IMG/VR virus record: IMGVR_UViG_3300045282_000227
Coordinates: 1 to 64,000 of that record
DNA from: a virus
Reading direction: 5' to 3' (one strand)
DNA: 64,000 nucleotides
A program made the translations under genes and the position numbers. Positions 2,526 to 61,242 of this stretch are shown piece after piece (position 1 is the stretch's first letter; each line of letters begins with the position of its first letter). The notes below the pieces were generated by a model. It saw only the letters and a list, made by a program, of their open reading frames with translations. It was not told the origin of the DNA and searched no databases.

Positions 2526-2526
2526 A

Positions 2527-3830: not shown

Positions 3831-3841
3831 GGAGTGTTCCG

Positions 3842-4045: not shown

Positions 4046-4053
4046 ACATCACA

Positions 4054-4066
4054 GGAAGGAGTTTCC
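4054..4066 (+). promoter_or_regulatory. Conserved ribosome binding element GGAAGGAGTTTCC, copy 3
   Basis: Exact third copy, one base before the nadV ATG at 4068. The GGAG is six bases plus from the start codon, an optimal distance. Confidence 0.7.
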
Positions 4067-4067
4067 T

Positions 4068-5501
4068 ATGAACCAGATTCTCAGCACTGACAGTTACAAG
4101 TTCTCCCATTTCATGCAGTATCCACCGGGAACGACAGACGTCTCGAGTTACATCGAGGCCCGTGGAACCAAGTTACCGAACGTCAAGGAGCTCGTCTTCC
4201 TTGGACTTCAGAGTTACATCAAAGACCGTCTCATGAAGCCGGTCACCATGGCCGATGTACGTGAAGCCGAAACATTCTGTTCCAAACACGGAGTTCCATT
4301 CAATGTCGAAGGTTGGACGACCATCGTTCGAGATCATGGCGGATTTCTTCCGATCAAGATCACTGCAGTACCAGAGGGCACGGTTGTTCCACTTGGAAAT
4401 ATGCTTGTACAAGTTCACACTCTGGACGAGCGCTTGCCTTGGTTGACCAGCTATGTCGAGACGGACATCTTGCGTTACGTCTGGTATCCGAGCACAGTCG
4501 GAACTGTGAGCCGCGAGATCAAGAAGATCATCAAGGCTGGCCTCGATGTGAGCTCAGACATTCCAGATGTCGTCCTTCCGTTCAAGTTGCATGACTTCGG
4601 CTACCGAGGCGTCTCGAGCACCGAATCGGCTGCACGTGGTGGCTTTGCGCATCTCGTGAACTTCCTCGGGACCGACACCGTCGCTGGCATCGAACATGCG
4701 ATTGAGTTCTATGACGCAGATGTCTGTGCATATTCGATCAGTGCTTCCGAGCATAGCACGATGACCTCGTGGGGTCAGGATTACGAATACGAAGCCTACG
4801 CGAACATGGTGAAGCAGTATGCCAAGAAGGGCGCCATTTTCGCGTGTGTCATTGACAGTTACGACACATTGAACGCCATAGACCTCTGGACACTGCCGCA
4901 ACGGGGCCAGAAGAGCCTGACCGATCAAGTCAAGGAAGCCGGTGCAACGGTCGTCCTGCGTCCCGACTCTGGTCATCCGGTTGACATGCCGGTTCTGGTC
5001 GTGGACACTTTGCTGCGGCGCTTGAGGAAGGAAGGCAAAGTCAACGAGAAGGGCTTCGCGGTTCTCCCAGATCATGTTCGTGTCATCCAGGGCGACGGCA
5101 TCGACATGCACGACGTCAAGAACATTCTCGACAAACTAATCGCCGCAAAGAACAGTACCGAAAACATCGGCTTCGGCATGGGTGGTGGTCTGCTCCAGAA
5201 GTGCGACCGCGACACATTCAAGTTCGCAATGAAGTGCAACGCGATCGAGATCGACGGTGAATGGCGTGCAGTATTCAAGGATCCGATCACCGACAAGGGC
5301 AAGGCTTCCAAGCGCGGACGCCAGGTTCTCCTGCGCCACAAGGAGACGAAGGAGTTCGTGACCGTGCGTGTCGAGTTGGGTGCTGATCTACGACTCGGTG
5401 GTTGGATCTCTGCAACCGAAGTGATGTTCAGTTCATATGCCGGGACAGTGAGGACCAATTTCACGACACTTGACAAGATTCGTGAAAGGGCGGCACTCTA
5501 A
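4068..5501 (+). CDS. nadV: Nicotinamide phosphoribosyltransferase
   Basis: A 477-residue NAMPT/NadV enzyme that joins nicotinamide and PRPP to give NMN. The family landmarks are present in order: the N-terminal TDSYKFSHFMQYP, the active-site loop ASEHSTMTSWG with the catalytic His, RPDSGHP (PRPP/phosphate binding; many homologues have RPDSGDP), GDGID and GFGMGGGLLQ near the C-terminus. Length is typical. NMN can pass to NadM (2527). In phages this pair has been described as an NAD+ rebuilding pathway that defeats NAD-depleting defences. It begins after a conserved ribosome binding element and its stop codon lies within a late promoter core (5499). Confidence 0.96.
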   Translation: MNQILSTDSYKFSHFMQYPPGTTDVSSYIEARGTKLPNVKELVFLGLQSYIKDRLMKPVTMADVREAETFCSKHGVPFNVEGWTTIVRDHGGFLPIKITAVPEGTVVPLGNMLVQVHTLDERLPWLTSYVETDILRYVWYPSTVGTVSREIKKIIKAGLDVSSDIPDVVLPFKLHDFGYRGVSSTESAARGGFAHLVNFLGTDTVAGIEHAIEFYDADVCAYSISASEHSTMTSWGQDYEYEAYANMVKQYAKKGAIFACVIDSYDTLNAIDLWTLPQRGQKSLTDQVKEAGATVVLRPDSGHPVDMPVLVVDTLLRRLRKEGKVNEKGFAVLPDHVRVIQGDGIDMHDVKNILDKLIAAKNSTENIGFGMGGGLLQKCDRDTFKFAMKCNAIEIDGEWRAVFKDPITDKGKASKRGRQVLLRHKETKEFVTVRVELGADLRLGGWISATEVMFSSYAGTVRTNFTTLDKIRERAAL

Positions 5502-5504
5502 ATA
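5497..5504 (+). promoter_or_regulatory. Late promoter core TCTAAATA
   Basis: TCTAAATA overlaps the nadV stop codon and lies 6 bases before the tRNA-Thr gene, so tRNA-Thr and the secreted protein at 5607 could be expressed late. Confidence 0.45.
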
Positions 5505-5510
5505 CTAGAC

Positions 5511-5584
5511 GCTCTGTTAGTATAGTGGTAGTACAGGTGTTTCGTAAGCACTTGGCGTAGGTTCGATTCCTACACGGAGCTCCA
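5511..5584 (+). tRNA. tRNA-Thr (CGU)
   Basis: Acceptor GCTCTGT pairs with ACGGAGC, loop TTCGTAA gives anticodon CGT, T arm GTAGG TTCGATT CCTAC, discriminator T and encoded CCA. It should read ACG. It stands apart from the main tRNA cluster, just after nadV. Confidence 0.9.
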
Positions 5585-5606
5585 ATTGACATTGAGGAGA
5601 AGTGAT

Positions 5607-5819
5607 ATGAAGCTGTCGTTCGTCGGCGTCGTTCTAGGTTTCGTCCTTGGAGTATCGAGCACAGTTCTCGCTACCACCGATCACTTCACCATCAACGGTG
5701 ACAATCAATGCGATCACTATACAATGGTCGTCGTGGCAACAGGTGAAGCCAATGCACAAGGCAAGCGCTATCCGGCCATGGAAGTCCTCTTGGTACCAAA
5801 GTGTGGGCGTTCTGCATAG
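5607..5819 (+). CDS. Small exported protein of unknown function (70 aa)
   Basis: ATG 5607 follows GAGGAGAAGTGAT, a good ribosome binding site, and begins a clear signal peptide or membrane anchor (MKLSFVGVVLGFVLGVSSTVLA), with a possible cleavage after VLA. The remaining roughly 45 residues contain two Cys that could form a disulphide in the periplasm. Function unknown. Confidence 0.78.
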   Translation: MKLSFVGVVLGFVLGVSSTVLATTDHFTINGDNQCDHYTMVVVATGEANAQGKRYPAMEVLLVPKCGRSA

Positions 5820-5825
5820 AAACAC

Positions 5826-5854
5826 TTGACTTCTTCCACGTAACACTATATCAT
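5826..5854 (+). promoter_or_regulatory. Sigma70-like promoter TTGACT-17-TATCAT
   Basis: -35 at 5826-5831, -10 at 5849-5854, exactly 17 apart. The ATG at 5861 lies 6 bases after the -10 box, so the transcript is expected to start at or within a base or two of it. Confidence 0.72.
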
Positions 5855-5860
5855 CGTTGT

Positions 5861-6289
5861 ATGAATAAGAGCTTCAATATGCACTCACTCAGGAAGTTCT
5901 GGTACGAACAGATTTCGTGTCGCATCTGGCCACGTCAGAAGTGGTTGACGAAGCAGATTCCCAAGACCTGGCAAGACAAGGATGGACTCATCGAGGATCT
6001 TGTCTTTGCGTGCCTGGTCAACTTCTGGGAAGCTGAGGACGGCGAAGAGTCCCTCCGTCTTCAGTATATCGATCCTGACAATCGTCTCAGTGATGAGCGA
6101 CGTGCAAAATTCCGCGACATCTACCAGAGACTGAACAAAGCCTACTTCTGGGCGGTCTCTCGTAAGGCATTGTGGGACGACCCAACTCTTTCACCGAAGG
6201 AATTGGTCGAGCAAGAAGCTGTTCTCACCGAGAAAGATTCGTATTTTCTCAAAGAAATCATCGAACTACGTGAATACCTCTGGACCTAG
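5861..6289 (+). CDS. Protein of unknown function (142 aa), leaderless start
   Basis: Not recognised. A Trp-rich, charged, probably helical soluble protein (FWYEQISCRIWPRQKW near the start, WEAEDGEESLRLQYIDP in the middle). ATG 5861 is preferred because it lies exactly 6 bases after a strong TATCAT -10 box, as at 13065, 19539 and 26238; ATG 5879 is an alternative. There is no ribosome binding site upstream of 5861. The acidic C-terminal half has helices ending EIIELREYLWT. Confidence 0.8.
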   Translation: MNKSFNMHSLRKFWYEQISCRIWPRQKWLTKQIPKTWQDKDGLIEDLVFACLVNFWEAEDGEESLRLQYIDPDNRLSDERRAKFRDIYQRLNKAYFWAVSRKALWDDPTLSPKELVEQEAVLTEKDSYFLKEIIELREYLWT

Positions 6290-6300
6290 GAGAATTGAAC

Positions 6301-6534
6301 ATGAGTGTCACTGACCAGCCGATCGAAGAGCTCGACAAGATCAAGCAGCTCGAAGCCATCGTCGAGAAGATTTCGGCTCTCGATACACAGAGAGGCAAGG
6401 CTATCGACGAGATCAACGACGCACTCCAAGGCGTCGAAATCACCGAGGAGCTGCAAGATCGCCTCCAAGACCTCGCCTACGACATCGGCATGGAATGGGA
6501 CGGCGAGCAGTTCTGGGAACCGTCGACCTGCTAA
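6301..6534 (+). CDS. Small coiled-coil protein ending FWEPSTC (77 aa)
   Basis: First of three neighbouring small genes whose products end in a shared motif. ATG 6301 follows CTAGGAGAATTGAAC. Residues 8-70 look like helical coiled coil (IEELDKIKQLEAIVEKISAL). The last nine residues EQFWEPSTC end in Cys and match VQFWKPSSC of the next gene and, loosely, SILWQNSGC of the third. Function unknown; the C-terminal Cys could be a modification or crosslinking site. Confidence 0.82.
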   Translation: MSVTDQPIEELDKIKQLEAIVEKISALDTQRGKAIDEINDALQGVEITEELQDRLQDLAYDIGMEWDGEQFWEPSTC

Positions 6535-46360: not shown

Positions 46361-46947
46361 ATAGATATGATCAATTAGCATATACATATCTTATAGGATG
46401 GCCCTCTTTGAGGAAGTGGTACTATGGGTACAGATGTGCTAATCGTAAATCTCCAGAAGAAGATTTCTGGATTGAATATTTTACATCTTCGCCTTTGGTG
46501 AAGCAATTCATAGAATTCTATGGTCAACCTGAATTCAAAGAAATCGACCAGACTTTTCCGAATGGTAATGAAGCTCATCAACACGAAATTCAAACATTGA
46601 TGAAGTTGAATGCCGGCAAATCGAATCAGTTTCTTAATCAGTATGTTTGGGTAAGTGGTGGGCAGATGAGCGATGCAACTCGTGCAAAAATGTCAGCATC
46701 TCATACAGGAAAATCGCACCCACAGAAAAAGAAACCACCATTCTCTCTAACGCACAGACAGAATCTTTCATTATCGAAAACGGGGATTAAGAATACACTC
46801 TTTGGAAAATCCCTCAGTCTGGAAAGACGTAAACAGATGTCCGAGACGCGTAAAGGTGTGAACAATTCTTTCTTTGGAAAGCACCACAATGACGAAACCA
46901 AAAGAAAGATTTCAGAAACCAAGAGATTGAGAAAACAACATGCATAA
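46357..46947 (+). CDS. Free-standing homing endonuclease 1 (GIY-YIG variant, NUMOD3)
   Basis: 196 aa. TYLIGWPSLRKWYYGYRCAN is a GIY-YIG variant (YLIGW...WYYGYR). The C-terminal 80 residues have NUMOD3-type helices (SDATRAKMSASHTGKSHPQ, SLERRKQMSETRKG, NDETKRKISETKRLRKQ). Its paralogue is at 58779. It is more A+T-rich than its neighbours, a sign of transfer. It overlaps gp27 by four bases (ATGA) and gp5 by 8 (ATGCATAA), so it is wedged between two essential genes. Confidence 0.85.
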   Translation: MNRYDQLAYTYLIGWPSLRKWYYGYRCANRKSPEEDFWIEYFTSSPLVKQFIEFYGQPEFKEIDQTFPNGNEAHQHEIQTLMKLNAGKSNQFLNQYVWVSGGQMSDATRAKMSASHTGKSHPQKKKPPFSLTHRQNLSLSKTGIKNTLFGKSLSLERRKQMSETRKGVNNSFFGKHHNDETKRKISETKRLRKQHA

Positions 46948-48367
46948 TTTCTCATTTGGTGAGTTTTGTTGGTTCATCGGCGTCGTAGAGGATCGCGAGG
47001 ATCCTAACAAGCTAGGACGTGTGAAGGTTCGAGTATTCGGCTACCACTCACAAGACACTTCTGAGGTCACGAAAGAAGATCTGCCGTGGGCCACTGTCAT
47101 GTTGCCTACGAACTCTGCGTCCAAGAAGGGCATCGGTCAGGCTCCGGTCGGTATGCAGGTCGGCACACACGTCGTCGGTTTCTTCCTCGATTCCGAGAAT
47201 GCCCAGGTTCCTATGATCATGGGCACGTTGGTTGGTATGCCAGATGAAGAGCCAGACACGAACAAACTCGTTCGAGGTGAACAACTAGACGAGACGATCA
47301 TCCAGGACAAGATCGACAATCTCTTGACGTCTGATCCGAACGGTTCCTCAATGAGCGCAAGTTCGTTGACTCAGCAGCTCACAGATGCAACCAAGCTCAT
47401 GGACACGAATGTCCTCTCGGCTCGTTCCTTGACCGGGAGTCTCCAGATCCCAAGTCTGTCTGACATTCAGGCGAACATGGGTTCGATCCTTGCGAATGCG
47501 TCGGGTCCAATCACAGCCGAAGGTGCCTTGGCACAGATCCAGAATACGATCGGAAACATTCAAGGACAGGTCGCGACCATCCAGCAGACGACCGAACGAC
47601 TCAAGAGCATCACGAATTCGGCCGACCAATTCGACGTCCAGAACATCCTCCATTCACAGATCGACGGCTTCAAGCAGAGTGTTGAAGGTGCTGCGTCGGG
47701 CATCCTCGGTCCGTTCACACAACAGATCGGCAATCTCACCTCCGCAGTCGATGCTCTACAGAACCTAAAGTCTGCAACTCTGAGTTTCAATAGTCTGCAG
47801 CAGGCTCTGAGTTCTGTCAGCCAGCTTCTTGGTGCGATTGGTCAGCTCAAGGCTCTTTCGAGATTCCTCGGCGGCAGCGCAGCAGCGACCATCAACGGAC
47901 TGAAGGCCGGTGCGTTGTCCAATGTCTGGAACGAAGCACCATCGAGAGCTGCACCGAAGTATCCATACAACGACATCAAGGCCACTGAAGGTGGACACGT
48001 TGACGAGTTCGACAATACGCCGGGCTCTGAACGACGTGCTTGGTACCACCCAACCGGAACCTTTCAAGAGGTCGCTCCGGATGGTACGATAGTGACAAAG
48101 ATAGTGAAAGACAATTATTCGATTACGATGGGAGATCATAAGGTTCATGTGGAAGGTGAAGTTCAAGTCAATATTCTCGGTAATGCTAAGGTTGTCGTTG
48201 CTGGCGATCTTGCTCTGCGCGTTGACGGTAATCGCACTGATATCGTCTCTGGAGACTACACTCTGGCTGTCGCAGGTGATTATTCACTCGCCATAGACGG
48301 AGCCTGCAACATCAAATCGAATACACACTTCAAAGTTCTGGCGCCACGAGTTGATTTGAACGAGTAA
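46940..48367 (+). CDS. gp5: Baseplate central spike protein (T4 gp5-like), no lysozyme domain
   Basis: 475 aa. N-terminal OB fold about 1-120: FIGVVEDREDPNKLGRVKVRVFGYHS, QAPVGMQVGTHVVGFFLDS and MIMGTLVG are gp5/VgrG OB motifs. The region 130-330 is helical and Ser/Thr/Gln-rich, and replaces the T4 lysozyme domain, whose catalytic motifs are absent. Residues about 380-475 form the beta-helix (SITMGDHKVHVEGEVQVNI ... LALRVDGNRTDIVSGDY). The PAAR gene is at 58115. Confidence 0.85.
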   Translation: MHNFSFGEFCWFIGVVEDREDPNKLGRVKVRVFGYHSQDTSEVTKEDLPWATVMLPTNSASKKGIGQAPVGMQVGTHVVGFFLDSENAQVPMIMGTLVGMPDEEPDTNKLVRGEQLDETIIQDKIDNLLTSDPNGSSMSASSLTQQLTDATKLMDTNVLSARSLTGSLQIPSLSDIQANMGSILANASGPITAEGALAQIQNTIGNIQGQVATIQQTTERLKSITNSADQFDVQNILHSQIDGFKQSVEGAASGILGPFTQQIGNLTSAVDALQNLKSATLSFNSLQQALSSVSQLLGAIGQLKALSRFLGGSAAATINGLKAGALSNVWNEAPSRAAPKYPYNDIKATEGGHVDEFDNTPGSERRAWYHPTGTFQEVAPDGTIVTKIVKDNYSITMGDHKVHVEGEVQVNILGNAKVVVAGDLALRVDGNRTDIVSGDYTLAVAGDYSLAIDGACNIKSNTHFKVLAPRVDLNE

Positions 48368-48930: not shown

Positions 48931-50760
48931 ATGCCTGGCTATAAAGAAACTGTCCAATCACTCAATCCCGTCTTCTTCCTGACGTTCGACGGCGATTCTG
49001 TCAATCCGACGACTCATACATTCAACTCCGGCGATCTGATCGACGAGTCGGGCTACTCTGCCCCGACAATGATAATGAATGAAGACCCGGCGCATCCTGC
49101 CTATCGTGCAGGAATTCAGTCGTTGGTCAATCTCGAACCAGCCGGACAGTATGCAACCTCATTCGGTTGGTACGGCTATCAGCCAGCAGCAACCACTCGT
49201 TGGCCACAAGCGTTCGTTCAGGTCACTCACCAAGCCCAACACCACTTCGACGCAAACAATGGATCGTTCACGGTCTCATTGATGTTCGATAAAGAGGTCA
49301 CCGACTCAGCCTGGCGTTCGGTTGAATTCAATCTTGCTGGTAACTGGACAGCTACCAGAATCAGCCCGATGATCCGCAAGGGTTCGTCGTTCAGAATATT
49401 CTTGTATGAACCCTATGGAAGTCCGACCGGTGTCATCCGTGTGGTGCTCCCGAATGGCACGAACATGGATTGGGGTCTCCCAGGTTGGTTCTACAACCGT
49501 CGCAACCATATCACGTTCACCTGGAATGTCTACCAGACGCTCGAGGGAACCTGGATCATGGAAGCCACTCTGTATGTCAATGGACATGTCAGAGCTACAC
49601 AGACATTCACTGACGTCGATGACTATGTCAACTCGTCTTCAACCGACAATATCGAAATCGCAGGAACAAGTGAGACGACCGATTCGGCCTTCAGTAACCG
49701 TTGTGTCTCGAATGTCGAGTTTGACCAGATCTTCATCATCGATCGTGCCTTGACGGCAGACGAGAACGCTCGCCTATACAGAAAGACGATGTTGTATCGC
49801 GATATCGTCCTAGCAGCTCAGCCGGCATTCTTCTATCCGATGGGCGATGCCCAGACGTCACTCGACTTCACAATGTCGAATGCCATCCCGGGTGGTCTGA
49901 ATGGTCTCTACCAAGGTGGCCTCGGCAAGCTCACTCGTGAACAGCCAGGCCCGACGATTCCGATTGGCAGCTCTTCGACAGACTTCCACGGCGGAACGGC
50001 TGTCGTTCACGCCTATAACAACTGCGGTGGCGAGTCGACCATCTTCAACCCAGGCGGCGACTACACGGTCGAGACCTGGTTCAAGATTTCTACGGCCGAT
50101 CGCTCGATTCTGTTCTCGTCACAGTCTGATGACCTTCCATGGAACGGCATCCTGGTCGAGATGAATCGCCGAAACAATCTGTTCCAGTCTGGCATGATTC
50201 AATTCTCGATCAATTCAGACTACCAGGTGAGCACTCGAGTCCTCACAGACACCGGTGGCCTGTACAACTTCACCGACAATCTCTGGCACTACTTGACATT
50301 GGTTAGAAAGGCAAACAAGATCTATATCTGGGTCGATGCCGTTCTGCACACTGTGATCGACGCGCCACTCGTCTCAACCGGTCTGCCTGGTCAGTTCTTC
50401 TTCATGGGAATGATGCCAGGCAATCTAAACACGTTCGGATTCTTGAGCAACTTTGTCATCTACAACTATGCCCTGGACGACGCCGAGATTCGGATGCGCA
50501 ACACCTATTCGAGCATCTATCGTATTCAAGGCAATGTCACGCTGCAGGGCAATCCGTATGGTGCGACAATCAGACTATACAATCACAGGACTGGTCAGCT
50601 TGCCCAAGAGACAGCAAGCAACCCAGATTCAGGTTACTACAATGCCTTGCTCTATGACAATTCACTGATTGATTTGGTCGCGATGAACAAGCAAGACGCC
50701 AATGTGCGCTATCGAGTCTATGGACCGTTGGTGCCTGGATTTTACGAGGATCTACCCTAA
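48931..50760 (+). CDS. Virion protein with two LamG-like domains (609 aa)
   Basis: Beta-rich surface protein. The first concanavalin/LamG-like domain covers about 95-275 (FTVSLMFDKEVTDSAWRSVEF, HITFTWNVYQTLEGTW...ATLYVNGHVRATQTF, VEFDQIFIIDRALTADEN) and the second about 370-525 (YTVETWFKIST, LWHYLTLVRKANKIYIWVDAVLH, FLSNFVIYNYALDDAEI). The typical NxxWHxL/NGxxV and dE.R.ly motifs are present. The C-terminal 80 residues are a third, Ig-like domain (TLQGNPYGATIRLYNHRTG). Such modules bind glycans. Likely a tail fibre or baseplate appendage. Confidence 0.85.
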   Translation: MPGYKETVQSLNPVFFLTFDGDSVNPTTHTFNSGDLIDESGYSAPTMIMNEDPAHPAYRAGIQSLVNLEPAGQYATSFGWYGYQPAATTRWPQAFVQVTHQAQHHFDANNGSFTVSLMFDKEVTDSAWRSVEFNLAGNWTATRISPMIRKGSSFRIFLYEPYGSPTGVIRVVLPNGTNMDWGLPGWFYNRRNHITFTWNVYQTLEGTWIMEATLYVNGHVRATQTFTDVDDYVNSSSTDNIEIAGTSETTDSAFSNRCVSNVEFDQIFIIDRALTADENARLYRKTMLYRDIVLAAQPAFFYPMGDAQTSLDFTMSNAIPGGLNGLYQGGLGKLTREQPGPTIPIGSSSTDFHGGTAVVHAYNNCGGESTIFNPGGDYTVETWFKISTADRSILFSSQSDDLPWNGILVEMNRRNNLFQSGMIQFSINSDYQVSTRVLTDTGGLYNFTDNLWHYLTLVRKANKIYIWVDAVLHTVIDAPLVSTGLPGQFFFMGMMPGNLNTFGFLSNFVIYNYALDDAEIRMRNTYSSIYRIQGNVTLQGNPYGATIRLYNHRTGQLAQETASNPDSGYYNALLYDNSLIDLVAMNKQDANVRYRVYGPLVPGFYEDLP

Positions 50761-51899
50761 TGGCATACGATAGCGTTCAAAGAATTTGGTTGCCACCGTG
50801 CAAGCATCTACACGGTGATCTGACCTCATGGAAGCTCTTGGTTGCTGACATCGATGCCTCGCTCATAGCTGCTGGAATCGTGCATACGTCTGACACGGGC
50901 CAGCTAGACATCAGTGCCGTCTCGAGCATAGGTTCAGGCGCCAACACAACCTATCTGGGATACAAGATCTATGCGTTCAATGACTCATGGCAGTCTACGA
51001 TGCCGATCTACTTCCGAATGGATTACGGTTGCGGATACGATCGCAGCACATCGAACGGTGTTCAGCGTGCACTCGTCATCAAACTTCAGTTCTCAACTGC
51101 TACCAACGGCAGTGGAACTCTGACAGGAACGCTGAGCTACCAGAGTAAGTTCCCAGGAAACACTGTGCCTGATACGGCTGCTGGTTCTGATCCAACATGG
51201 CCGAACTACTACCAAGGAACCAATTACATCAGTCACAACAAGACGGTCGGATTCCTTGGTTTCCTTTACCAGAGTCTTGGTCGCGGAACCGTGGCTTCGT
51301 ACACCAATCAATTCGCCACGACGAACTATGCGGGTTGCACAATTGCATTCGCGGTTCAAAGAACCCACGGTCCTGATGGTCTACCAGATGGTAAGGGATT
51401 CGTTATCTACGATCCAAGGCGTAGCTGGTTCAACGGAAACGATCACACATTCACATCGATGTCACAGACGATCTGGTATTCGCCGGCGATGACAAACAGC
51501 ACGGCACCAACAACATGGAACGCTGATGCTTCTAGTTCTGGTGACATCTGGTTGACATACGTCCCTGGCCTCGAATACGAAGGTTCTTGGACCACAGGTG
51601 GCACTCCAACTCACCAACCTGACTCTACCTATGGTGGCAAGCCTATCGCGTTCCCTATCAACTATTGGAATTTCGACAAGGGTCCAACACCGTTCGATTG
51701 TATGGCCGGCTTCTTGGCCAACTCTAGCTATGGTGGTGGCCAACTCGTTACTATCGAAACCATTCCTGGCTTGAAGAGGAAGTTCTTGATTCTTCCACAC
51801 CACTCGACGTTCAACTTCTCGAGACAATTCATCTTTGGTGCGAGTGGTGCTGACCTACGAAACAGTGCAGCGGGTCGCGTCGCTTTCTTGTGGGAGTGA
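50760..51899 (+). CDS. Virion protein of unknown fold (379 aa)
   Basis: ATG 50760 overlaps the previous stop by one base. Aromatic and Gly/Thr/Ser-rich, with YLGYKIYAFNDSWQSTMPIYFRM, TGTLSYQSKF, GKGFVIYDPRRSW and near the end IPGLKRKFLILPHHSTFNFSRQF. Homologues occur in structural clusters as fibre or adhesin units. No catalytic motif. Confidence 0.77.
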   Translation: MAYDSVQRIWLPPCKHLHGDLTSWKLLVADIDASLIAAGIVHTSDTGQLDISAVSSIGSGANTTYLGYKIYAFNDSWQSTMPIYFRMDYGCGYDRSTSNGVQRALVIKLQFSTATNGSGTLTGTLSYQSKFPGNTVPDTAAGSDPTWPNYYQGTNYISHNKTVGFLGFLYQSLGRGTVASYTNQFATTNYAGCTIAFAVQRTHGPDGLPDGKGFVIYDPRRSWFNGNDHTFTSMSQTIWYSPAMTNSTAPTTWNADASSSGDIWLTYVPGLEYEGSWTTGGTPTHQPDSTYGGKPIAFPINYWNFDKGPTPFDCMAGFLANSSYGGGQLVTIETIPGLKRKFLILPHHSTFNFSRQFIFGASGADLRNSAAGRVAFLWE

Positions 51900-51902
51900 C
51901 CT

Positions 51903-53600
51903 GTGACAACACAGACAGCAAGATACTGGTGCTTTTGGTTCCGCAATGTCTTCGGCAATGCACTCATCAGTGCCCAAAGTGTCATCAAGGGAATCACTCT
52001 CCGCGATGGTAGTGGTACAGCTATCTCGTATGCTGATGCAAGGGCCTACAGTCCAGAGAATCGCGTAGATTCTGGTTCGGGAACTCGAGCTCTCCTTGAC
52101 GCCGACAGTTCTACATTCTGTGCTTTCTATACAGCGACCGATTACTTTGTTCTGTTCGATTTCGGAACAGCCGTTACAGTTGGCTCCTATGACATCCAAG
52201 GTTCGGCGTCTGTAAAGGAATCGCCGAATCATTGGTTACTGATGTGTCGAAATGATTATCCGTTCGATTGGTCACAGAATTGGACAGAGCTCGGCCTGTT
52301 TCAGATTGCGTCTCCTTGGACGGCCAGTCAAACCAAATCATTCAACCTCTCCGACGCCAATCCACCTTTCGAAGAAGCTGTCTGGGCTCAAGGTGGTCAG
52401 ACATCTTGGGTTGCCGATAGCGCTGATATGCTTCTCACGGATTTTGGTGATGCCACAGGTGAAGCAATCTGGCTAGGTCGAACTGGCGATAAGCGTCAGA
52501 GCTACTGGGGTGACGGAATCATCTCTGGTAGTGTGACAGACAGCAGCGGATTCATCTCCGGTGCCAAGGTCTATCTCGTCGATCCAGCGAACAGGAACCA
52601 TGTAGCCGAGACAACGGCAGACGGCGTTGGCTTCTATCAGTTCTTGAATCTCGATCGTACTTGCCTCTTCGACATCGTTGCACAAGATCCGGCAGGTCTC
52701 TGGGAGAAACGCGTTTCGAGTAGCCGTCGTCCTTGGGCCCAGGCACAGATGGTCATCAATGTCGCCGACGAACCATTCAATGGACAGCGCCCTGGCCAGT
52801 TCGGTATACAACTGAATTCGAAAGAATCTCCTAAACTGGTTGCTACATTCGGTGTAGGTGAGGACACCTGGACGGCCCTGAATTGTTCTGATCCGTTTTT
52901 CAAGTATGTCACTGCCTTGATTCGCATTGACGATACAGGTGCCATCTACGACATGTCGAAGACGCAGATGGCACACACCTCAGGAACAGCTGCCGCGTCG
53001 AACGTCGTCACACCACCAACGGGATTCGGAAACAACTCTTTGAGAATCGGTGTCAGTGGTGACGCCTACAGTTTCTACACATTCAGCAATTTCCCGAATG
53101 TCATGGATAGAGACTTCACCTGTGAGTACTACCTCTATCCGCTTTCGTCGCCAGGCGCCTCACAAGGTTATCAAATCTGTTTCGATGAGTCGGGTTGGCA
53201 GTCTGCCAAGAACGGTAACTACCTGTTCTATACTCACCCGAACACATCACCGTCACAGGTGAATTTCCTCACACCACAACAGAATGTATCTTGGATCTAT
53301 TTGTTCGGCGGAAACCCTGCCGGTTCTGGTACGGCCAATGCCTTGACTATGGACGCTTGGCAGCATGTCGAGGTGTCAAGACAGAACAATACATACAGAA
53401 TCTTCATCGACGGTGTCAAGAAGACCGAACAGAGCTACACCACATACTCAGTCGCCAACGATCTCTATCCCAATGTGTTCATGCTGGGCGTGTACACGTA
53501 CTCGACGCCATCCTATATGACTGGTATCAGATTCACTGACGGCATCTGCAGACACACTGCCACTTTCACGCCGCCGACTTTCGCCGAGATGTATCAATGA
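51903..53600 (+). CDS. Virion protein with discoidin-like, Ig-like and LamG domains (565 aa)
   Basis: GTG start, ATG absent nearby. Domain order: 1-150 an F5/8 type C (discoidin)-like half, judged by the YFVLFDFGTAVTVGSYDI and WTELGLFQI strands; about 200-290 a carboxypeptidase-regulatory/Ig-like domain (GSVTDSSGFISGAKVYLVD...FYQFLNL); about 360-555 a LamG-like domain (FTCEYYLYPLSSPG, DAWQHVEVSRQNNTYRIFIDGVK, MTGIRFTDGICRHTATF). The order suggests a sugar-binding tail appendage. Confidence 0.83.
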   Translation: MTTQTARYWCFWFRNVFGNALISAQSVIKGITLRDGSGTAISYADARAYSPENRVDSGSGTRALLDADSSTFCAFYTATDYFVLFDFGTAVTVGSYDIQGSASVKESPNHWLLMCRNDYPFDWSQNWTELGLFQIASPWTASQTKSFNLSDANPPFEEAVWAQGGQTSWVADSADMLLTDFGDATGEAIWLGRTGDKRQSYWGDGIISGSVTDSSGFISGAKVYLVDPANRNHVAETTADGVGFYQFLNLDRTCLFDIVAQDPAGLWEKRVSSSRRPWAQAQMVINVADEPFNGQRPGQFGIQLNSKESPKLVATFGVGEDTWTALNCSDPFFKYVTALIRIDDTGAIYDMSKTQMAHTSGTAAASNVVTPPTGFGNNSLRIGVSGDAYSFYTFSNFPNVMDRDFTCEYYLYPLSSPGASQGYQICFDESGWQSAKNGNYLFYTHPNTSPSQVNFLTPQQNVSWIYLFGGNPAGSGTANALTMDAWQHVEVSRQNNTYRIFIDGVKKTEQSYTTYSVANDLYPNVFMLGVYTYSTPSYMTGIRFTDGICRHTATFTPPTFAEMYQ

Positions 53601-54001
53601 ACCAACTCTATGCAAAGGCCTCCAAGAGATTCCTCGAGGGTTCAATCAACTGGAACTCTGATACCATCAAAGTGTATCTCGTTGACCAGTCTGTCTATGG
53701 TCCTGACCTTGCCAATGACGAATACTTGAGTGATGTTCCTTCGGGTGCTCGCGTGGCTGGTCCTGTCACTCTATCCGGAAAGACTACAACAGGTGGAGCA
53801 GCCGACGCCAACGACGTGACCTTCACGGCCGTGACTGGTGTGAACATTGAGTACGTTCTGATCTACAAGGATACAGGAACAGAGTCGACCTCACCGCTGA
53901 TTGCCTTGATCGACCAGGCTGCAACTCTCCCACTCTCGCCCGATGGCTCTGACATCAATGTGAATTGGAGCAACGGAACGAACAAAATCTTCCACTTGTA
54001 A
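53597..54001 (+). CDS. Structural protein, phage tail appendage type (134 aa)
   Basis: ATGA overlap with the previous gene. LYAKASKRFLEGSINWNSDTIKVYLVDQSVYG followed by DVTFTAVTGVNIEYVLIYKDTG is a compact virion domain common in myovirus fibre clusters. Function: unknown structural unit. Confidence 0.8.
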   Translation: MNQLYAKASKRFLEGSINWNSDTIKVYLVDQSVYGPDLANDEYLSDVPSGARVAGPVTLSGKTTTGGAADANDVTFTAVTGVNIEYVLIYKDTGTESTSPLIALIDQAATLPLSPDGSDINVNWSNGTNKIFHL

Positions 54002-54061: not shown

Positions 54062-56587
54062 ATGATTCTTAGTCCACTAGGATGGCAACAATCCCTAGTG
54101 GGCTATCCTGGAATAGCGCACCAGGAAGTCAATTGCTACTGGGTCTTCCGTCCTGGTAACAATGTTCCCATCCGTCTCGATACCACCTGGGCTCCGCGCT
54201 CAGGTAACGACGCGGCTATCGTATTCACCTGTTCGTCGATCTTCATCCCTCCGACCAACTTCGACGGATTCATCAATGTCTATGATGGCATCGCTCTTGA
54301 TGTCATCCTGCTCACGTCGATCAGAGTGTTCATGCCGGTCGGTGAATATACGACGGCTGGGCTCTACACATACGTATTCACCAACTTCGACCCGTTCGCG
54401 GATGGTGCATATACAACTGTTCAGGTACTCGAACTCAATCTTCTCTTCAAAGCCTATGACGGCGTTGATTCGACGGCCGTCCTGCACGAGACATTCTTCT
54501 GTCGTGCCTATGATGGTGCTGCAACAGGCTCGGCTTGCGCAGGTGTCAGTTTCGATCAGTTCTCGCATGTCTCGTCGGCAGGTAACGCGACCACTGTCAG
54601 CCCACCGACTGGCTTTGTACTCAAGACGTCTGGCGATGCGACCTATGGTGACAACCTAAGCACTGGCGTCACGACGACCTACGACAAGCCTGTCTCGATC
54701 ACATGGACACAGGTTGCCAACGGAACACTGGTCTCTGATAACTCGACTACGTTCTCGCCGTATGCGTTTGCTCACTTCTTCACGAACAACCCGGCAAGCA
54801 TAACGACCACAACGTCGACGGATCCTGGTCGTAACCCGTTCGGTGCCGCTCTTGTAACATCGAACCCGCCATACATTGCCCTTGCACTTCCGAAGACGCC
54901 TGGCTCGGCCATCACCCTTCGTGTATCGGACGGAACGACATCTTCTGATACGAGCATCACAGCGACCGGCGTCGACCTATTCGACGGTCTGCCAATCAAT
55001 GTCACTCTGAAGAAGGCGCTCGACGGAAAGGCGGCTGTCGAGGTCTGGCACAACGATGCACTGCTCTACGACGCCGAAACTTCGCTGAATTATCCGTCCG
55101 ACGTCTTGCCGATATGGCACTTCGACAATGGCGCGAACAGTTCTGCAAACAATATCACCGTCGACAACCTTGCTTCCTGCGATGGCCACGAGTTCATCCA
55201 CTTTGCCCAGGCAGATGTCCTTGTACCAAATGCACACCAGGTAGGCGAGTTCTGTCAGGCGAACCTGTATACTCGAGTCTCGTTCGTCTGCTCACAGTTC
55301 GTCGGCGAAGACATCTCGATCAACCTGACCCTACCGAACAGAACGCTGCCGACTGCGTTCGTCAAGGACGGCATTGCAATCACTGTCGACATGATCGTCG
55401 GCAACAATCTCGGCATCGTCCCGAACAAAGATGGCGCCTATGCAACGGCCGACATCACTGTCTCGCACCCACTCGGAACCATCAACGCATATGACGGCGT
55501 CGACAGCACGGTTGTTGATCTTTACGTCCTCCCGGCAATCAGAGCTGACGTCTATGATGGCGTCGCTATCTCGATCGACCTCAGACTCGATCCGGTGTTC
55601 GGTGAGACCTTTGCGTTCGACGGCGTCGCGTTCAGTCCGGCACTCACAGTCAACCACCCACAGAACTTTGGCATACTGAATGTCTATGATGGTCCGTATC
55701 TCACTCTGGTCCTCCACCACCCAGAAGCAGTGTTCTTCTACCCACGTCCGTTCTATGCTGGTGAAGAGTTCTACTCTGATGAGATTGGCTTCCGCTCCAT
55801 GGATCTCGACTATGACATCGTCGTGGATCCATGGTTCAACGGTCACGCGAATATCGAATTGGCGGGTGGTCCGCCTGCTCATGCTAGGTATTGGGGTTGC
55901 GGTCTCGAATGTGAAATCCGAGTCGACCTCAAGACTCTACCTGTCTTGCATCCGGTCGGTGCCTTCGACGGCCCAAGTATGTCGATCGTCGATCAGATCG
56001 TCCTACAGGTTGCACCATTCTATGTCGGCACCAATGCGACGCTCGAATGCATGGTTGTCGACTACACGAACATCAAGCTCTGCCCGGGTAACTTCATCCC
56101 GGACGGCGACCACGCAGACATCGAGTTCCTCTATACATATCCAGAATGCGGAATCGTATACAAAGTCTATGACGGTGCTCGAATCGACTGCTATCTCTCG
56201 GCTCATTATGGATTCTTCCTTCCGTCCTATGACGGTCCGTACATGTATTGCAACCTGTTCGTTCCGGAGCCGGTTGACATCTGGCACCTGAATGCCTATG
56301 ATGGTCCGTTCATGCGTGTCAGCAATCCAGAGTTCGATCCGAAGGCCTACGATGGCGCAGCAACGTACTTCGAATTCGCACCAGACAGATACTTCGCGTA
56401 TGATGGTGCCTTCTGCACCGTGACTAAATTGACATTGGACTACAATGTAGAATTCCTTGAATCTGGTTGCCTCGACAACGAGTTCGTCCCGACGACACCA
56501 GAAGGCTATCTCGACTACAGCAAATTCAACCCGGTTCCGGTGGAGCTCGACTACTTCGAGCATAGCGTCCTGGCGCACTGCTTCTAA
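54062..56587 (+). CDS. Large virion protein with YDG repeats (841 aa)
   Basis: Repeat-rich, mostly beta protein. At least eleven YDG motifs with the consensus (A/V)YDGxxxxxxL occur, mostly between residues 75 and 805 (for example NVYDGIALDVIL, KAYDGVDSTAVL, NAYDGPFMRV, KAYDGAATYF), plus three FDG variants. The spacing is roughly 20-60 residues. Between them one LamG-like region (about 150-380: QFSHVSSAGNATTVSPPTG..., KAAVEVWHNDALLYDAE). I do not recognise the family; likely a baseplate or fibre protein. ATG 54062 follows AAGGATAATTC. Confidence 0.8.
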   Translation: MILSPLGWQQSLVGYPGIAHQEVNCYWVFRPGNNVPIRLDTTWAPRSGNDAAIVFTCSSIFIPPTNFDGFINVYDGIALDVILLTSIRVFMPVGEYTTAGLYTYVFTNFDPFADGAYTTVQVLELNLLFKAYDGVDSTAVLHETFFCRAYDGAATGSACAGVSFDQFSHVSSAGNATTVSPPTGFVLKTSGDATYGDNLSTGVTTTYDKPVSITWTQVANGTLVSDNSTTFSPYAFAHFFTNNPASITTTTSTDPGRNPFGAALVTSNPPYIALALPKTPGSAITLRVSDGTTSSDTSITATGVDLFDGLPINVTLKKALDGKAAVEVWHNDALLYDAETSLNYPSDVLPIWHFDNGANSSANNITVDNLASCDGHEFIHFAQADVLVPNAHQVGEFCQANLYTRVSFVCSQFVGEDISINLTLPNRTLPTAFVKDGIAITVDMIVGNNLGIVPNKDGAYATADITVSHPLGTINAYDGVDSTVVDLYVLPAIRADVYDGVAISIDLRLDPVFGETFAFDGVAFSPALTVNHPQNFGILNVYDGPYLTLVLHHPEAVFFYPRPFYAGEEFYSDEIGFRSMDLDYDIVVDPWFNGHANIELAGGPPAHARYWGCGLECEIRVDLKTLPVLHPVGAFDGPSMSIVDQIVLQVAPFYVGTNATLECMVVDYTNIKLCPGNFIPDGDHADIEFLYTYPECGIVYKVYDGARIDCYLSAHYGFFLPSYDGPYMYCNLFVPEPVDIWHLNAYDGPFMRVSNPEFDPKAYDGAATYFEFAPDRYFAYDGAFCTVTKLTLDYNVEFLESGCLDNEFVPTTPEGYLDYSKFNPVPVELDYFEHSVLAHCF

Positions 56588-57888
56588 TGACTACTTGCCT
56601 CACATCAATCGCAGGAATGGGTTCGTACAGTTCTCTCACAGAGATCGTCCCGAGCACTACCTTTGGCCTCAGTCTCACATCGAGCGTCAATCAGCTCTTC
56701 CGTTTGTCGTCTCCGTTGTTCCAGACGGTGTCGATTACATTCAATATCTCGTCGTTCAGTCCGAACATCACACTCGCTGTCTACTCATGGAATGGCTCGA
56801 CAGCTACCTTTGTCGGATCGGCCAATTGTACATCTTCTATCGTTACCACGAGCATCGATCTCTCGGCTGGCAACTACATCTTTTGCTTCCATTCGAATAC
56901 TGGCAACGCGACCGGAAACTTCATCGCTCTATTCACAGGATTCCCACAGCTTCCGGTCTTCCAACCGTCGCCTGTGTTCGTGGGTGAACAAGGTACTGTA
57001 TCGGTTCTCGTGGTTCCGAAGCCACCGCGAATCTGTCACCAGACAATTTACTTCGAGAAAGTCGACGGAGAGTTCCCACCAGGCATCAGCATCACGAACC
57101 TCGGATCCATCCGTGGCTGGCTTCCGAACCTCGACTGCGTTCCTGATCCACTCAGTCCATCTATGAACTGGTGGTACACAGAGGAAGATGGAACCACGTG
57201 GCCATGGGGTCGTGAATGGAGATTCGAACTGCGTTGCTGGTTGGCAGATGTCATCGAAATTGAAGACTTCGAATGGTTCTGCATCCGCGTCCACAACAAC
57301 TGGTCGCTCGACCAAGATGCGTTCCTCAAGAAGGTTCCATTCGTCAATGTCGTTGAGGTTCGAGTCGTCGAGGATCCTGTCAAGCTGCCACCGAATCTCT
57401 GTGTGCCGTGCAAAGACACCGAAGGCATGCCGGCTTTCGTTCCACAGCCAATCGAAACGCCTTGCCTCCCATGCGGCGACTCTGGACAGACGACAACAAT
57501 TGAGCTGATCCCGATTCCACTCGATCTCTGCACCTGCCCTGCGGAGGGATTCATTGACTGGTACGAGACGAACAAAGACACGACTTTCATCAATCCACTG
57601 ATCGAGAAGTTCAAGAACGATCTGGCCAATTCGGCGGCTTTCAATCTTCTCAGAACCAAGGCTGGTAAATCCACAAGTGACCTCACCGAAGAACAGAAGG
57701 CTCGACAGTTCGTGGCGGCGACCGCGTTCCAGAACTTCCTCCAGCTGGCAACGGTTCGCGCAGAAGACACAGCCAACCCGAATGATATGGCCCAATTACT
57801 TGAGAAGTGGCGCTCGTATGAAAATCAGATTCTACCAATGCGATTCGCGAATCGAGACGGAGTGAACGTCAGTGTCAACTTTGCCTAA
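56587..57888 (+). CDS. Structural protein with Cys-Pro-rich joints (433 aa)
   Basis: TAATG overlap with the previous gene. N-terminal 120 residues are beta-rich (SLTSSVNQLFRLSSPLFQT). A central domain about 150-250 with HQTIYFEKVDGEFPPGISI, WWYTEEDGTTWPWGREW resembles domains in T4-like phage structural proteins. Then two Cys pairs, LCVPCKDTEG and TPCLPCGDSG, and LDLCTCPAEG, which could cross-link or bind metal, and a helical tail. Same Cys motif as the next gene. Confidence 0.75.
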   Translation: MTTCLTSIAGMGSYSSLTEIVPSTTFGLSLTSSVNQLFRLSSPLFQTVSITFNISSFSPNITLAVYSWNGSTATFVGSANCTSSIVTTSIDLSAGNYIFCFHSNTGNATGNFIALFTGFPQLPVFQPSPVFVGEQGTVSVLVVPKPPRICHQTIYFEKVDGEFPPGISITNLGSIRGWLPNLDCVPDPLSPSMNWWYTEEDGTTWPWGREWRFELRCWLADVIEIEDFEWFCIRVHNNWSLDQDAFLKKVPFVNVVEVRVVEDPVKLPPNLCVPCKDTEGMPAFVPQPIETPCLPCGDSGQTTTIELIPIPLDLCTCPAEGFIDWYETNKDTTFINPLIEKFKNDLANSAAFNLLRTKAGKSTSDLTEEQKARQFVAATAFQNFLQLATVRAEDTANPNDMAQLLEKWRSYENQILPMRFANRDGVNVSVNFA

Positions 57889-58093
57889 TACACTCTGCCC
57901 ACCGTGCGACGTTGTCCAGGACTTCGTTCCGATACAGCTTCCGGCTGAGCTCTGCCCGTGCCCGCCACCTCCGCCCGCGAAACTGATCTTGCCTACCGTT
58001 TCGAGTGTCACTGTCACCACAGACTGCCTGCTAGAGACCCTCAGGGGCCTCACACAGACACTTTTCTGTGATGTTGATCCACCTGGTTGTTGA
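57872..58093 (+). CDS. Small Cys/Pro-rich protein (73 aa)
   Basis: GTG start overlapping the end of 56587 by 17 bases. TLCPPCDVVQDF, then PAELCPCPPPPPAK: the LCxPC...LCxCP pair of the preceding protein repeated in miniature. May be an accessory structural protein. The start is uncertain as no ribosome binding site is obvious. Confidence 0.62.
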   Translation: MSTLPNTLCPPCDVVQDFVPIQLPAELCPCPPPPPAKLILPTVSSVTVTTDCLLETLRGLTQTLFCDVDPPGC

Positions 58094-58114: not shown

Positions 58115-58399
58115 ATGGGAATGGCTGCCTGCAGAATGTTTGATATGACGATGGGACACGGTTGCTGGCCGCCCCAGAAACTCATACAGGGTTCGCACAA
58201 TGTCTTCATCGAGTCAAAGCCAGCACACCGAGTCGGTGACAAAATCGTATCGCATTGCTGCTACGGCTGTCACCCAAGCGTTTCGGCCAAAGGATCAAGT
58301 ACAGTGTTTGTAAACGGTAGACCACTAATGCGGGTTTCTGATCTAGCCAATTGCGGCTCTGTCATGATGACCGGCGCAATGACAGTGTGGGCAGGATGA
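58115..58399 (+). CDS. PAAR-domain spike-tip protein (94 aa)
   Basis: MAACRMFDMTMGHGCWPPQKL, GSHNVFIESKPAHRVGDKIVSH, CHPSVSAKGSSTVFVNGRPLMRVSD and CGSVMMTGAMTVWAG follow the PAAR pattern (S..VFvnGkpaar.gD...). Three His/Cys ligands for iron or zinc are likely. It caps the gp5-like spike (46940). Overlaps gp25 by four bases. Confidence 0.9.
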   Translation: MGMAACRMFDMTMGHGCWPPQKLIQGSHNVFIESKPAHRVGDKIVSHCCYGCHPSVSAKGSSTVFVNGRPLMRVSDLANCGSVMMTGAMTVWAG

Positions 58400-58782
58400 A
58401 AGAGAATCCGATCTACACTGACATCGATCTGTCGTTCGTAGCTCATCCATTGACAGGTGATCTACCGACGCGAGTGAATCAAGAGGCCTTGAAGCGAACG
58501 ATCATTCATCTCTTCAAGATCAACCCTTTCGATATCCCGTTCCGCACATACAAGTCGAACATGAAGCGCTACTTGTTCGAGACCGATTCGCCCATCATCC
58601 GTGCCGCCGTCCAAACCGATCTATCGTGGATCATCAAGAAGCTCGAGCCACGAATTGTTCTGCGCGAACTCACAGTGACTCCGGTCAACGAGGGTCGCGC
58701 GTGGAACATCGAAGTCACATATTCTGTCAGGTCGCTCAATGGTGACCAGACGTTCGATCTAGTAGTGGAGCGTGTCCGTTGA
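58396..58782 (+). CDS. gp25: Baseplate wedge protein (T4 gp25-like)
   Basis: 128 aa (T4 gp25 is 132). IYTDIDLSFVAHPLTGDLPTRVN then a helix-strand pattern with KRTIIHLFKINPFDIPFRTY and WNIEVTYSVRSLNGDQTF is the gp25/GPW family pattern. Gp25 is a lysozyme-related wedge unit that starts sheath assembly. ATGA overlap with PAAR, and a second (TTGA) with the endonuclease downstream. Confidence 0.92.
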   Translation: MKENPIYTDIDLSFVAHPLTGDLPTRVNQEALKRTIIHLFKINPFDIPFRTYKSNMKRYLFETDSPIIRAAVQTDLSWIIKKLEPRIVLRELTVTPVNEGRAWNIEVTYSVRSLNGDQTFDLVVERVR

Positions 58783-59468
58783 ACAGGTTCGGCCAATACT
58801 GCTACACGTATCTCATAGGGTGGCGCACATTGGATGTGTGGTACTATGGTTATCGTGCAGGTAACAAGATGGCACCCTCTAACGATCTCTGGAACGTGTA
58901 TCCTACCTCTTCACAACACGTCAAGGATTTCAGAGCTCTACACGGTGAGCCAGATGTTGTACGAGTGCATAGACTCTTTGAAACCAAAACCGAGGCAAAG
59001 AGATACGAGACGAGATTCATTCAGAGAGTGAACGCTGTATTGAGTGATCGCTGGCTGAATAAGTATGACGGTATTAAATTCCATGGTCCTTCGCAGTTCT
59101 CAACGAAATCGCGGAAGATGATGAGCGTTGCCAAGCTAGGCAAGAAGCGTGGACCACCATCTATCGAAACCAGAATGAAAATGTCAATCGCTATGAAAGG
59201 CAAGGTGTTTCCTCCGATTTCAGATGCAACAAGACTGAAGATGTCTAGAACTCGAAAAGGTAGATCACATTCTATAGAACATAGACATAATTTGTCTGAG
59301 GCTCATATGGGTAGAAGAAATTCTGTAGAAACTCGAATCAAGATTAGCCAAACACATCTAGGCATCAGGCAGTTGATAGTGACATGTCCACATTGTAATG
59401 TTTCTGGAGGGTCTCGAGCCTTGTCCCGTTGGCATTTCGACAATTGTAAGGTATTAGCAAATGCGTAA
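58779..59468 (+). CDS. Free-standing homing endonuclease 2 (GIY-YIG variant, NUMOD3, zinc finger)
   Basis: 229 aa. Paralogue of 46357: YTYLIGWRTLDVWYYGYRAGN matches YTYLIGWPSLRKWYYGYRCAN. Five NUMOD3-like helices (STKSRKMMSVAKLGKKRG, SIETRMKMSIAMKGKV, SDATRLKMSRTRKGR, and so on) are followed by a zinc finger CPHCNVSGG...HFDNC typical of T4-type HEGs. Its TTG start lies in the gp25 stop and its TAA overlaps the gp6 ATG in ATGCGTAA. More A+T-rich than the surroundings. Confidence 0.85.
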   Translation: MNRFGQYCYTYLIGWRTLDVWYYGYRAGNKMAPSNDLWNVYPTSSQHVKDFRALHGEPDVVRVHRLFETKTEAKRYETRFIQRVNAVLSDRWLNKYDGIKFHGPSQFSTKSRKMMSVAKLGKKRGPPSIETRMKMSIAMKGKVFPPISDATRLKMSRTRKGRSHSIEHRHNLSEAHMGRRNSVETRIKISQTHLGIRQLIVTCPHCNVSGGSRALSRWHFDNCKVLANA

Positions 59469-61242
59469 TCTCCCAATTCAATCACTCCAGTTTGACGTCA
59501 TCAAGCAGAACTTCAAGGACTTCTTGAAGGGAAACGAGCGTTATAAGGATTATAATTTTGAGGCCTCTGGCATTGGTACGATCGTCAATCTCATGTCGTA
59601 CCAGACACACTACCTTGGCTTCTTTGTCAAGATGCTCTTGGACGAATCATTCGTTGACTCGGCTCACACTCGCCAGGCTCAACTCTCGCATGCCAAGAAG
59701 ACAGGCTATGTGCCCAAAGGTCGTCGTGCATCCAAGGCCGAAGTTCGCCTCAAGGTGTTCACCGATACGAGCAGCGAACCTGCTACCAAGACCTTCCAGC
59801 TCGAACGTGGCCAGACCTTCTCGGCTACGAACTCAACACAAGACAGCCGTGTGTTCACAGTCGTCGACGGTTCTCTGATCACATCAAGAACGTTGGTCGG
59901 ATCGGCTGTCACTTATACGTCGGATCCGATCGTCGTCCTAGAGGGCGTGATCCGCACATGGAACTTCGTGGTCGATTCATCGATCATCAATCAGCGATTC
60001 ATTATCAAAGACCCGTCCATTGACATCGACACCATCCGTGTTCGTGTCCGCGAGAATTCAACTTCGACCAGCTTCTCTGAATACATTCTCGCCAAGAACA
60101 TCTCTGATCTCGACGCCAATTCGAAAGTCTATTTCGTGACAACCGATGAGTTCGGCAACTACCAAGTGTTCTTTGGTAACGACGTGTTCGGTGTACAACC
60201 ACAGACTGGCAACGCGATCGAAGTCACGTATGTCTCGACCAATGGTGAGTCCGGCGATGGCGCCAAGTCATTCACGTTCAACACGCCTATCACCGGTTCT
60301 TTGGCAGGCTTCGTGAACACCGAGGTCGTCACTCTGGCCACCGCGTCTGGCGGTGCAGAACCACAGACGGCAGACGAACTACGCTTTGCAATCCCGAACA
60401 GCTATCGCCGCCAGGACCGTCTCATCACACCAGACGACTATCGCACGATTCTCTTGGATGAGTACCGTAATATCGACAGCCTGAATGTCTGGGGTGGAGA
60501 AGACAACGTACCGCGTGATTATGGTAAGACCTATCTGAGCATCAAGCCACGCAACTCGAACCGTCTCACCGCTCTCGCGCGCGAAGAGATCAGACAGACG
60601 ATCGTCAAGAAATTCGGTGCCATCGGTGCTGATGTTGTGTTTGTCGATCCAGACTTCATCGACGTCAACCTGACCATTCTCTGCAAATTCGATCTACGCA
60701 AGACGGCACGTACGGTTCCTGAATTGGTGAACGTTGTCCAGGCGGCCATCGACGCATACAACTCAGATACACTTTCGAAGTTCAACACATTCCTCTCGGA
60801 CGTCGAGCTCTTGTCAGATATCCGAAGCCAAGACCCAGCGTTCGTCTCAATGTATTCGAGAAAGGTTCTCGGCAAGACGATTACCCAGATCCACGGATCA
60901 ACCTCTGCCCAGACAGTTCGATTCGGCAATGCACTCGTGCCTAGCACGGTCGCCAGCGCTGACATTGTCTACTCGACCTTTGTTGCGAACATCAAGGACA
61001 ATGGACAAGGCCTCTTGAACCTCGTGAACAAGGCGAACGGCCAGGCTCTGGTCGCTGCTGGCAAAGTGGACTATGAGACGGGTGCAGTGACCTACAATCT
61101 GCCACAATTCGCAAAGGTCGCAGGATACGAAACCGGAACAACCGGCCAACTCGTGTTCAATGGCGTACCTGTCAACCCAGATGTCAACACGTACCTGAAC
61201 AATATCGTTCGCATCGCCTCGTCTAAGGTAACGGTCCTGTGA
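59461..61242 (+). CDS. gp6: Baseplate wedge protein (T4 gp6/baseplate J-like)
   Basis: 593 aa. SLQFDVIKQNFKDFLKGNERYKDYNFEASGIGTIVNLMSYQTHYLGFFVKMLLDESFVDSAH at the N-terminus and RRQDRLITPDDYRTILLDEYRNIDSLNVWGGED in the second half are the marks of the gp6 (baseplate J) family. Gp6 dimers form the ring of wedges. ATG 59461 overlaps the HEG stop by 8 bases; the gene that follows starts inside its end. Confidence 0.92.
   Translation: MRNLPIQSLQFDVIKQNFKDFLKGNERYKDYNFEASGIGTIVNLMSYQTHYLGFFVKMLLDESFVDSAHTRQAQLSHAKKTGYVPKGRRASKAEVRLKVFTDTSSEPATKTFQLERGQTFSATNSTQDSRVFTVVDGSLITSRTLVGSAVTYTSDPIVVLEGVIRTWNFVVDSSIINQRFIIKDPSIDIDTIRVRVRENSTSTSFSEYILAKNISDLDANSKVYFVTTDEFGNYQVFFGNDVFGVQPQTGNAIEVTYVSTNGESGDGAKSFTFNTPITGSLAGFVNTEVVTLATASGGAEPQTADELRFAIPNSYRRQDRLITPDDYRTILLDEYRNIDSLNVWGGEDNVPRDYGKTYLSIKPRNSNRLTALAREEIRQTIVKKFGAIGADVVFVDPDFIDVNLTILCKFDLRKTARTVPELVNVVQAAIDAYNSDTLSKFNTFLSDVELLSDIRSQDPAFVSMYSRKVLGKTITQIHGSTSAQTVRFGNALVPSTVASADIVYSTFVANIKDNGQGLLNLVNKANGQALVAAGKVDYETGAVTYNLPQFAKVAGYETGTTGQLVFNGVPVNPDVNTYLNNIVRIASSKVTVL

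Follow-up and report, generated by a model that had tools for sequence, protein, structure and literature searches.

The 841-residue protein encoded on the + strand at positions 54062–56587 of the window (a 64,000-nucleotide stretch of viral DNA, positions 1 to 64,000 of IMG/VR record IMGVR_UViG_3300045282_000227) is a member of a previously unnamed, uncatalogued family of repeat proteins carried by one group of T4-related phages. The family is real, and its function is read from context. As judged from the sequences compared, the YDG motif that punctuates this protein is the local form, in the window's phage, of a wider unit of ~21 residues. On balance, we lean toward a role as a non-catalytic scaffold rod of the virion adsorption apparatus, which would be anchored at its C-terminus and present lectin-like domains. 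The segments of the repeat protein and the cassette and baseplate genes of the window described below lie on the + strand.

Architecture of the repeat protein

The open reading frame begins with ATG and is supported by its translation, its homologues, and a held-out repeat score; its boundaries and product length are those of the original prediction. It contains eleven YDG motifs (ten AYDG or VYDG and one SYDG) and four FDG motifs. The abundance first reported therefore holds, with ten A/V-type copies rather than at least eleven and four FDG copies rather than three. These fifteen [YF]DG motifs compare with a mean of 0.62 and a maximum of 5 in composition shuffles (n = 5000). Hydrophobic residues are concentrated at G+3, G+5, and G+7 (67, 80, and 67%) in contrast to G+4, G+6, and G+8 (20, 40, and 33%), against a background of 38%, in agreement with the beta-like stretch of alternating hydrophobic residues predicted to follow the motif. 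The alternation also occupies G-7 and G-5, and its presence on either side of the motif points to a strand, a turn, and a second strand. The protein holds about twenty copies of the unit, ~21 residues apart in the main array and 17–23 residues apart toward the C-terminus. The YDG-punctuated repeat is genuine, although its first description missed units spelled KDG, FVGE, PDGD, and PVGE, as well as a non-repeat insert at approximately residues 155–390.

The N-terminal part (residues 1–154; 54062–54523), identified with the repeat profile, is the variable end of the protein. Its units are anchored at G32, G76, G94, and G134, including PGNN and PVGE spellings, and it aligns poorly among relatives, whose N-termini differ from one to another. 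It is followed by the non-repeat insert (about residues 155–392; 54524–55237), common to the window protein and phage X1, and by the main array (residues 387–580; 55220–55801), in which nine consecutive units are anchored at G395, 415, 437, 458, 479, 500, 521, 544, and 567 and from which residues 429–558 were modelled with AlphaFold2. The C-terminal block (residues 560–841; 55739–56584) is the family's conserved end, with units at G637, 656, 682, 705, 725, 748, 765, and 782. The whole protein is strongly acidic (96 D+E against 33 K+R), as are the proteins of the family.

Relatives in T4-related phages

Searches with tblastn found homologues in 20 phage records that correspond to 13 distinct phages: Xanthomonas phage X1, ten Menderavirus (Moby, Marzo, and Ps15 among them), Acidovorax ACP17, and Variovorax V45v66. 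Further homologues come from IMG/VR contigs. The X1 homologue is 28% identical over 96% of the window protein (E 1e-67), and homologue lengths range from 577 to 1604 residues. All are unnamed, being either annotated as hypothetical protein or left unannotated; the window protein has no match in Pfam, PHROGs, NCBIfam, or PDB sequences, and no relative was found in the bacterial genomes searched. The early impression that this is no known phage family is borne out. The X1, Menderavirus, ACP17, and V45v66 proteins are true homologues that share gene order, the C-terminal block, and the ~21-residue unit with the window protein, but in them YTGE, YEGA, and YQGE outnumber YDG, and array length and inserts are unlike those of the window.

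In the X1 homologue, some 250 residues at the N-terminus (L001:8149–9020) carry a different repeat that is also present in Pseudomonas phages vB_PaeM_USP_25 and USP_18. The N-terminal W-x-P-x-x-G-[DN]-x-h-x-h-x-[FV] units of ACP17 and the Variovorax phage (L003, L004) resemble the ~21-residue unit in a proline-spelled version. A scan for paired YTGE codons returned mostly unrelated 12- or 24-residue repeats. In another type of phage, a 373-residue protein (L059:532–1650) has 20–22-residue ITPxxGxLxYTGE units and no partner gene of the kind described below; its likeness in pattern makes it a possible analogue or distant relative.

The ~21-residue unit

The unit common to the window protein and its homologues has the consensus h-x-h-x-A-[YF]-x-G-[EA]-x-h-x-h-D-L-x-T. 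YDG does not define it, since relatives spell this turn YTGE, YEGA, YSGE, or YQGE. A profile from whose training the window and X1 were withheld, built as a position matrix with chained anchors and units 17–25 residues apart, scored the window chain at 187.9 (200 shuffles: mean 6.8, maximum 29.5) and the X1 homologue at 260.1 (best of 200 shuffles, 26.4), with the proviso that the training anchors had been placed by a matrix holding a few percent window contribution. The chained matrix detected no array in the other structural proteins of the window that were tested. An HMMER profile of the unit built without the window (21 columns, 96 effective sequences) scored the window at noise level, which we attribute to a 21-column profile being too specific; the chained matrix settled the matter. 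The Pfam 'YDG' domain PF18657, created in the study of Periscope Proteins (PMC8201768), has the letters YDG in common and occurs as repeats in variable-length surface proteins, but it spans 85 positions against ~21 residues here, and a search of the contig with its profile, up to E <= 10, came back empty.

The residues at the turn follow the phage. Mutual information with phage identity is 1.08 bits for the x of YxG (shuffled maximum 0.66) and 0.73 bits for the residue after G (shuffled maximum 0.50). In the window protein, x is D in 13 of the 16 YxG-type units; at orthologous C-terminal units it is T or E in Menderavirus, and many copies in Marzo have shifted to Q. The turn residues are homogenised within each phage, in what looks like either concerted evolution or lineage-wide selection. 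The YDG codons are mixed, and DNA similarities, found around some copies, extend over 18–22 nt only, so the array is not the product of a recent expansion at the DNA level.

Units come in two lengths, short (19–20 residues) and long (22–23 residues), that tend to alternate. What sets them apart is a proline-bearing loop spanning G+9 to G+14, found in 82 of 125 long units versus 34 of 115 short ones (p 2e-8). In the longest arrays the alternation is marked (lag-1 -0.49 to -0.52, p 0.004–0.009, for three related arrays), whereas it is weak when all arrays are pooled (260 of 5000 shuffles reach it). The alternation raises the possibility that the structural unit of the longest arrays may be a ~42-residue pair.

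Conserved C-terminal end and variable insert

Four residues of the C-terminal block, C674 (56081–56083), C803 (56468–56470), H834 (56561–56563), and C840 (56579–56581), are invariant in 19 of 19 proteins that are otherwise mostly 16–32% identical to the window protein, and the spacing of the block is fixed across the family. Because the cytoplasm in which phage proteins fold is reducing, this C/C/H/C set is perhaps a metal site, for which it supplies the candidate ligands.

The inserts of the window and X1 proteins have no Pfam match, including Laminin-G/ConA-like PF13385, and no PDB sequence match. The window insert is perhaps distantly shared with insert 2 of three IMG/VR relatives, L025, L033, and L036 (pairwise hhalign E 5e-4, probability 33%). 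In two of these, Laminin_G_3 (PF13385) is embedded in the array (L033, E 3e-12; L036, E 4e-11). To call residues 155–392 of the window protein a lectin-like sandwich is a guess.

Fold of the array

Full-length AlphaFold2 modelling with 11 homologues gave a pLDDT of 31. For the 130-residue, six-unit segment 429–558, a 44-row alignment of non-overlapping family segments gave a model with pLDDT 59 and pTM 0.42, in which a short strand precedes and a long strand follows each motif. All motifs occupy the equivalent turn rather than the unrelated loops that would have spoken against the first description. The model superposes on 3ljy (VIA-align Z 10.2; 2.1 Å over 117). Foldseek against the PDB gave nothing significant, with no hit better than E 0.26; against BFVD, Foldseek returned one structural match, the uncharacterised A0A6J5M9D8 (TM 0.73, prob 1.00, E 0.1). 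The low-confidence model also aligns with other single-chain beta-solenoids, namely an antigen 43 domain (4kh3) and bactofilin, beside the putative adhesin 3ljy. These alignments of a regular model to solved solenoids lend a little weight to the original suggestion of a new solenoid, which is tempered by the pLDDT of 59 and by the known tendency of AlphaFold2 to over-predict beta-solenoids for repeats (PMC11795689). Given this bias, our reading of the model goes no further than a regular turn, formed by the motif between strands.

A homotrimeric beta-spiral shaft of the adenovirus fibre type, or a string of beta-hairpins, is a serious contender that we hold at somewhat below even chances, and it would leave the proposed function unchanged. 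A unit made of a single tight turn and two strands, each strand with one hydrophobic side, suits this shape as well as a single-chain solenoid. The alternation of short and long units in the longest arrays, with its proline loop and a unit of perhaps ~42 residues, and the solenoid bias of AlphaFold2 also speak for it, while the sole usable model is a solenoid. The adenovirus fibre shaft, a triple beta-spiral, is itself built of beta repeats that are short and conserve a glycine at the turn. The window protein is alike in both features but has no profile or sequence match to it. T4-type tail fibres likewise have a repeat shaft encoded beside baseplate genes, as in the window; no match to the T4 short and long tail fibre families (gp12, gp34–37) was found in PHROGs, Pfam, NCBIfam, or PDB sequences. 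Compared with the T4 and adenovirus shafts, the unit in the window is longer, and the conserved end of the family is the C-terminus. A bolder reading, which we consider rather doubtful, is a fold absent from solved structures: a rod whose period is two units (~42 residues), with a C/C/H/C metal site closing it and a shared unit stacking it on the partner. Such a rod would serve as a host-adhesion device that bears lectins and is found in a single T4-related clade.

A cassette beside the baseplate genes

In the window, the repeat gene is part of a cassette that begins downstream of a gp5-like baseplate hub/spike gene (46940–48367). The cassette encodes a 609-residue protein with a Laminin_G_3/ConA-like domain (LamG609, phrog_31125; 48931–50760), a 379-residue protein of no family (50760–51899), a 565-residue protein that has Laminin_G_3 and also a weak match of carboxypeptidase-regulatory-like type (51903–53600), a 134-residue protein (53597–54001; phrog_644, annotated unknown function), the repeat protein, its 433-residue partner (56587–57888; phrog_29085, annotated unknown function), and a conserved small protein of 73 residues (57872–58093). 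It is followed by genes for a PAAR spike-tip protein (58115–58399), a gp25-like baseplate wedge protein (58351–58782, with a start probably near 58399; the X1 and ACP17 homologues here are annotated baseplate wedge), and a gp6-like baseplate wedge protein (59461–61242). In Ps15 (L065), the cassette LamG/lectin genes at 1621–3495 and 4904–6355 are publicly annotated as amine dehydrogenase and pectate lyase, which is probably misleading.

The 20 phage records with the repeat protein are exactly those with the partner and those with the 609-residue LamG protein (20 of 20), whereas gp6 occurs in 710 T4-related records. The 20 cassette carriers are the 20 best gp6 matches (47–59%), the next being at 30–32%. 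In IMG/VR, 17 partner loci have upstream sequence on their contig, and in all 17 the repeat gene lies directly upstream of the partner. A single repeat unit (8–20 bits) sits near residue 133 of the partner in every tested relative. The two genes are coupled, the start of the partner overlapping the stop of the repeat gene as TAATG. A frameshift fusion of the two proteins was considered and rejected, as the intergenic gap varies (43 nt in X1, 16 nt in L025).

In the window, X1, ACP17, the Variovorax phage, and contigs, gp5 flanks the cassette on one side and PAAR/gp25/gp6 on the other. This order, common to most relatives, and the conservation of the C-terminal block and the partner would suit a structural protein at the baseplate periphery, standing in for T4 proteins such as gp9–gp12 and serving assembly, not host contact. 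We regard that role as improbable: a length range of 577–1604 residues and embedded LamG domains are odd for a fixed part, and Menderavirus has the cassette at a distance from gp6 (in Moby, cassette at 119.7–130.7 kb and gp6 at 145.1 kb, ~15 kb apart). This separate placement indicates that the cassette is a unit of its own.

Proposed role

In the scaffold rod that we infer, about 20–25 beta units of ~21 residues would stack into an extended, strongly acidic shaft, which in long relatives may be made from pairs, one unit short and the other long with a proline loop. Held by the C/C/H/C set and perhaps its metal, the conserved C-terminal block would anchor the rod to the virion together with the partner, which may cap or continue the stack through its one repeat unit. 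The variable N-terminal side with its inserted ~240-residue domain would point outward, a direction read from conservation. Lectin-like domains, either in the same chain as cis inserts or in trans on the cassette LamG proteins, would touch the host surface. Within Menderavirus, mean identity is 90% for the repeat protein and 94% for the partner, compared with 60 and 69% for the lectin genes 2 and 4 of the cassette, a contrast that suggests a conserved scaffold with variable tips; LamG609 is 93% conserved, so not all lectin genes are variable. A variable-length repeat stalk that presents adhesive domains is also the design of bacterial fibrillar adhesins and Periscope Proteins (PMC9210967, PMC8201768), but these are cellular surface proteins, and no sequence relationship to the window protein was found.

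The same comparisons bear on a rival role for the repeat protein, that of receptor-binding adhesin in its own right. A surface glycan would then be bound by exposed turn residues (x in YxG and the position following G) or by the ~240-residue insert, with the LamG proteins otherwise employed. Such a role, which we judge unlikely, would account for turn residues that are lineage-specific and for an insert that varies among lineages; it sits poorly with a Menderavirus repeat protein that is among the better-conserved cassette products, unlike the lectin genes, and with a window protein that has no known binding domain in Pfam. The initial proposal of an adhesin or spacer gains support from gene context, and the evidence favours a spacer or scaffold over a receptor-binding tip. 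The papers found on Ps15 and X1 contain no mass spectrometry, and we found no proteomics placing the repeat protein in the virion, which leaves some room for a secreted or intracellular non-virion protein, such as a decoy or superinfection factor; adjoining baseplate genes and the strict linkage to LamG genes, some of them annotated structural, make this very improbable.

The proposed scaffold rod and its cassette have practical interest. Phages of this clade, which infect Stenotrophomonas, Xanthomonas, and Acidovorax, are under study for use in therapy and crop protection while their host recognition is unannotated, and the lectin genes, rod, and partner are concrete candidates for it. The C-terminal block and the partner together form a marker for recognising the cassette in new genomes, and the rods of the family, about 600 to 1600 residues long, form a natural series that differs in inserted domains and in the number of units.

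Other features of the window

A GIY-YIG-like open reading frame lies between gp25 and gp6 (58779–59468). ACP17 has a homologue at the same junction (43%, annotated homing endonuclease), and the frame is absent from this junction in X1, the Variovorax phage, and the IMG/VR relatives. Six tRNA genes (three Leu, Ser, Glu, and Thr) lie at positions 28–5584, near the contig's left end.
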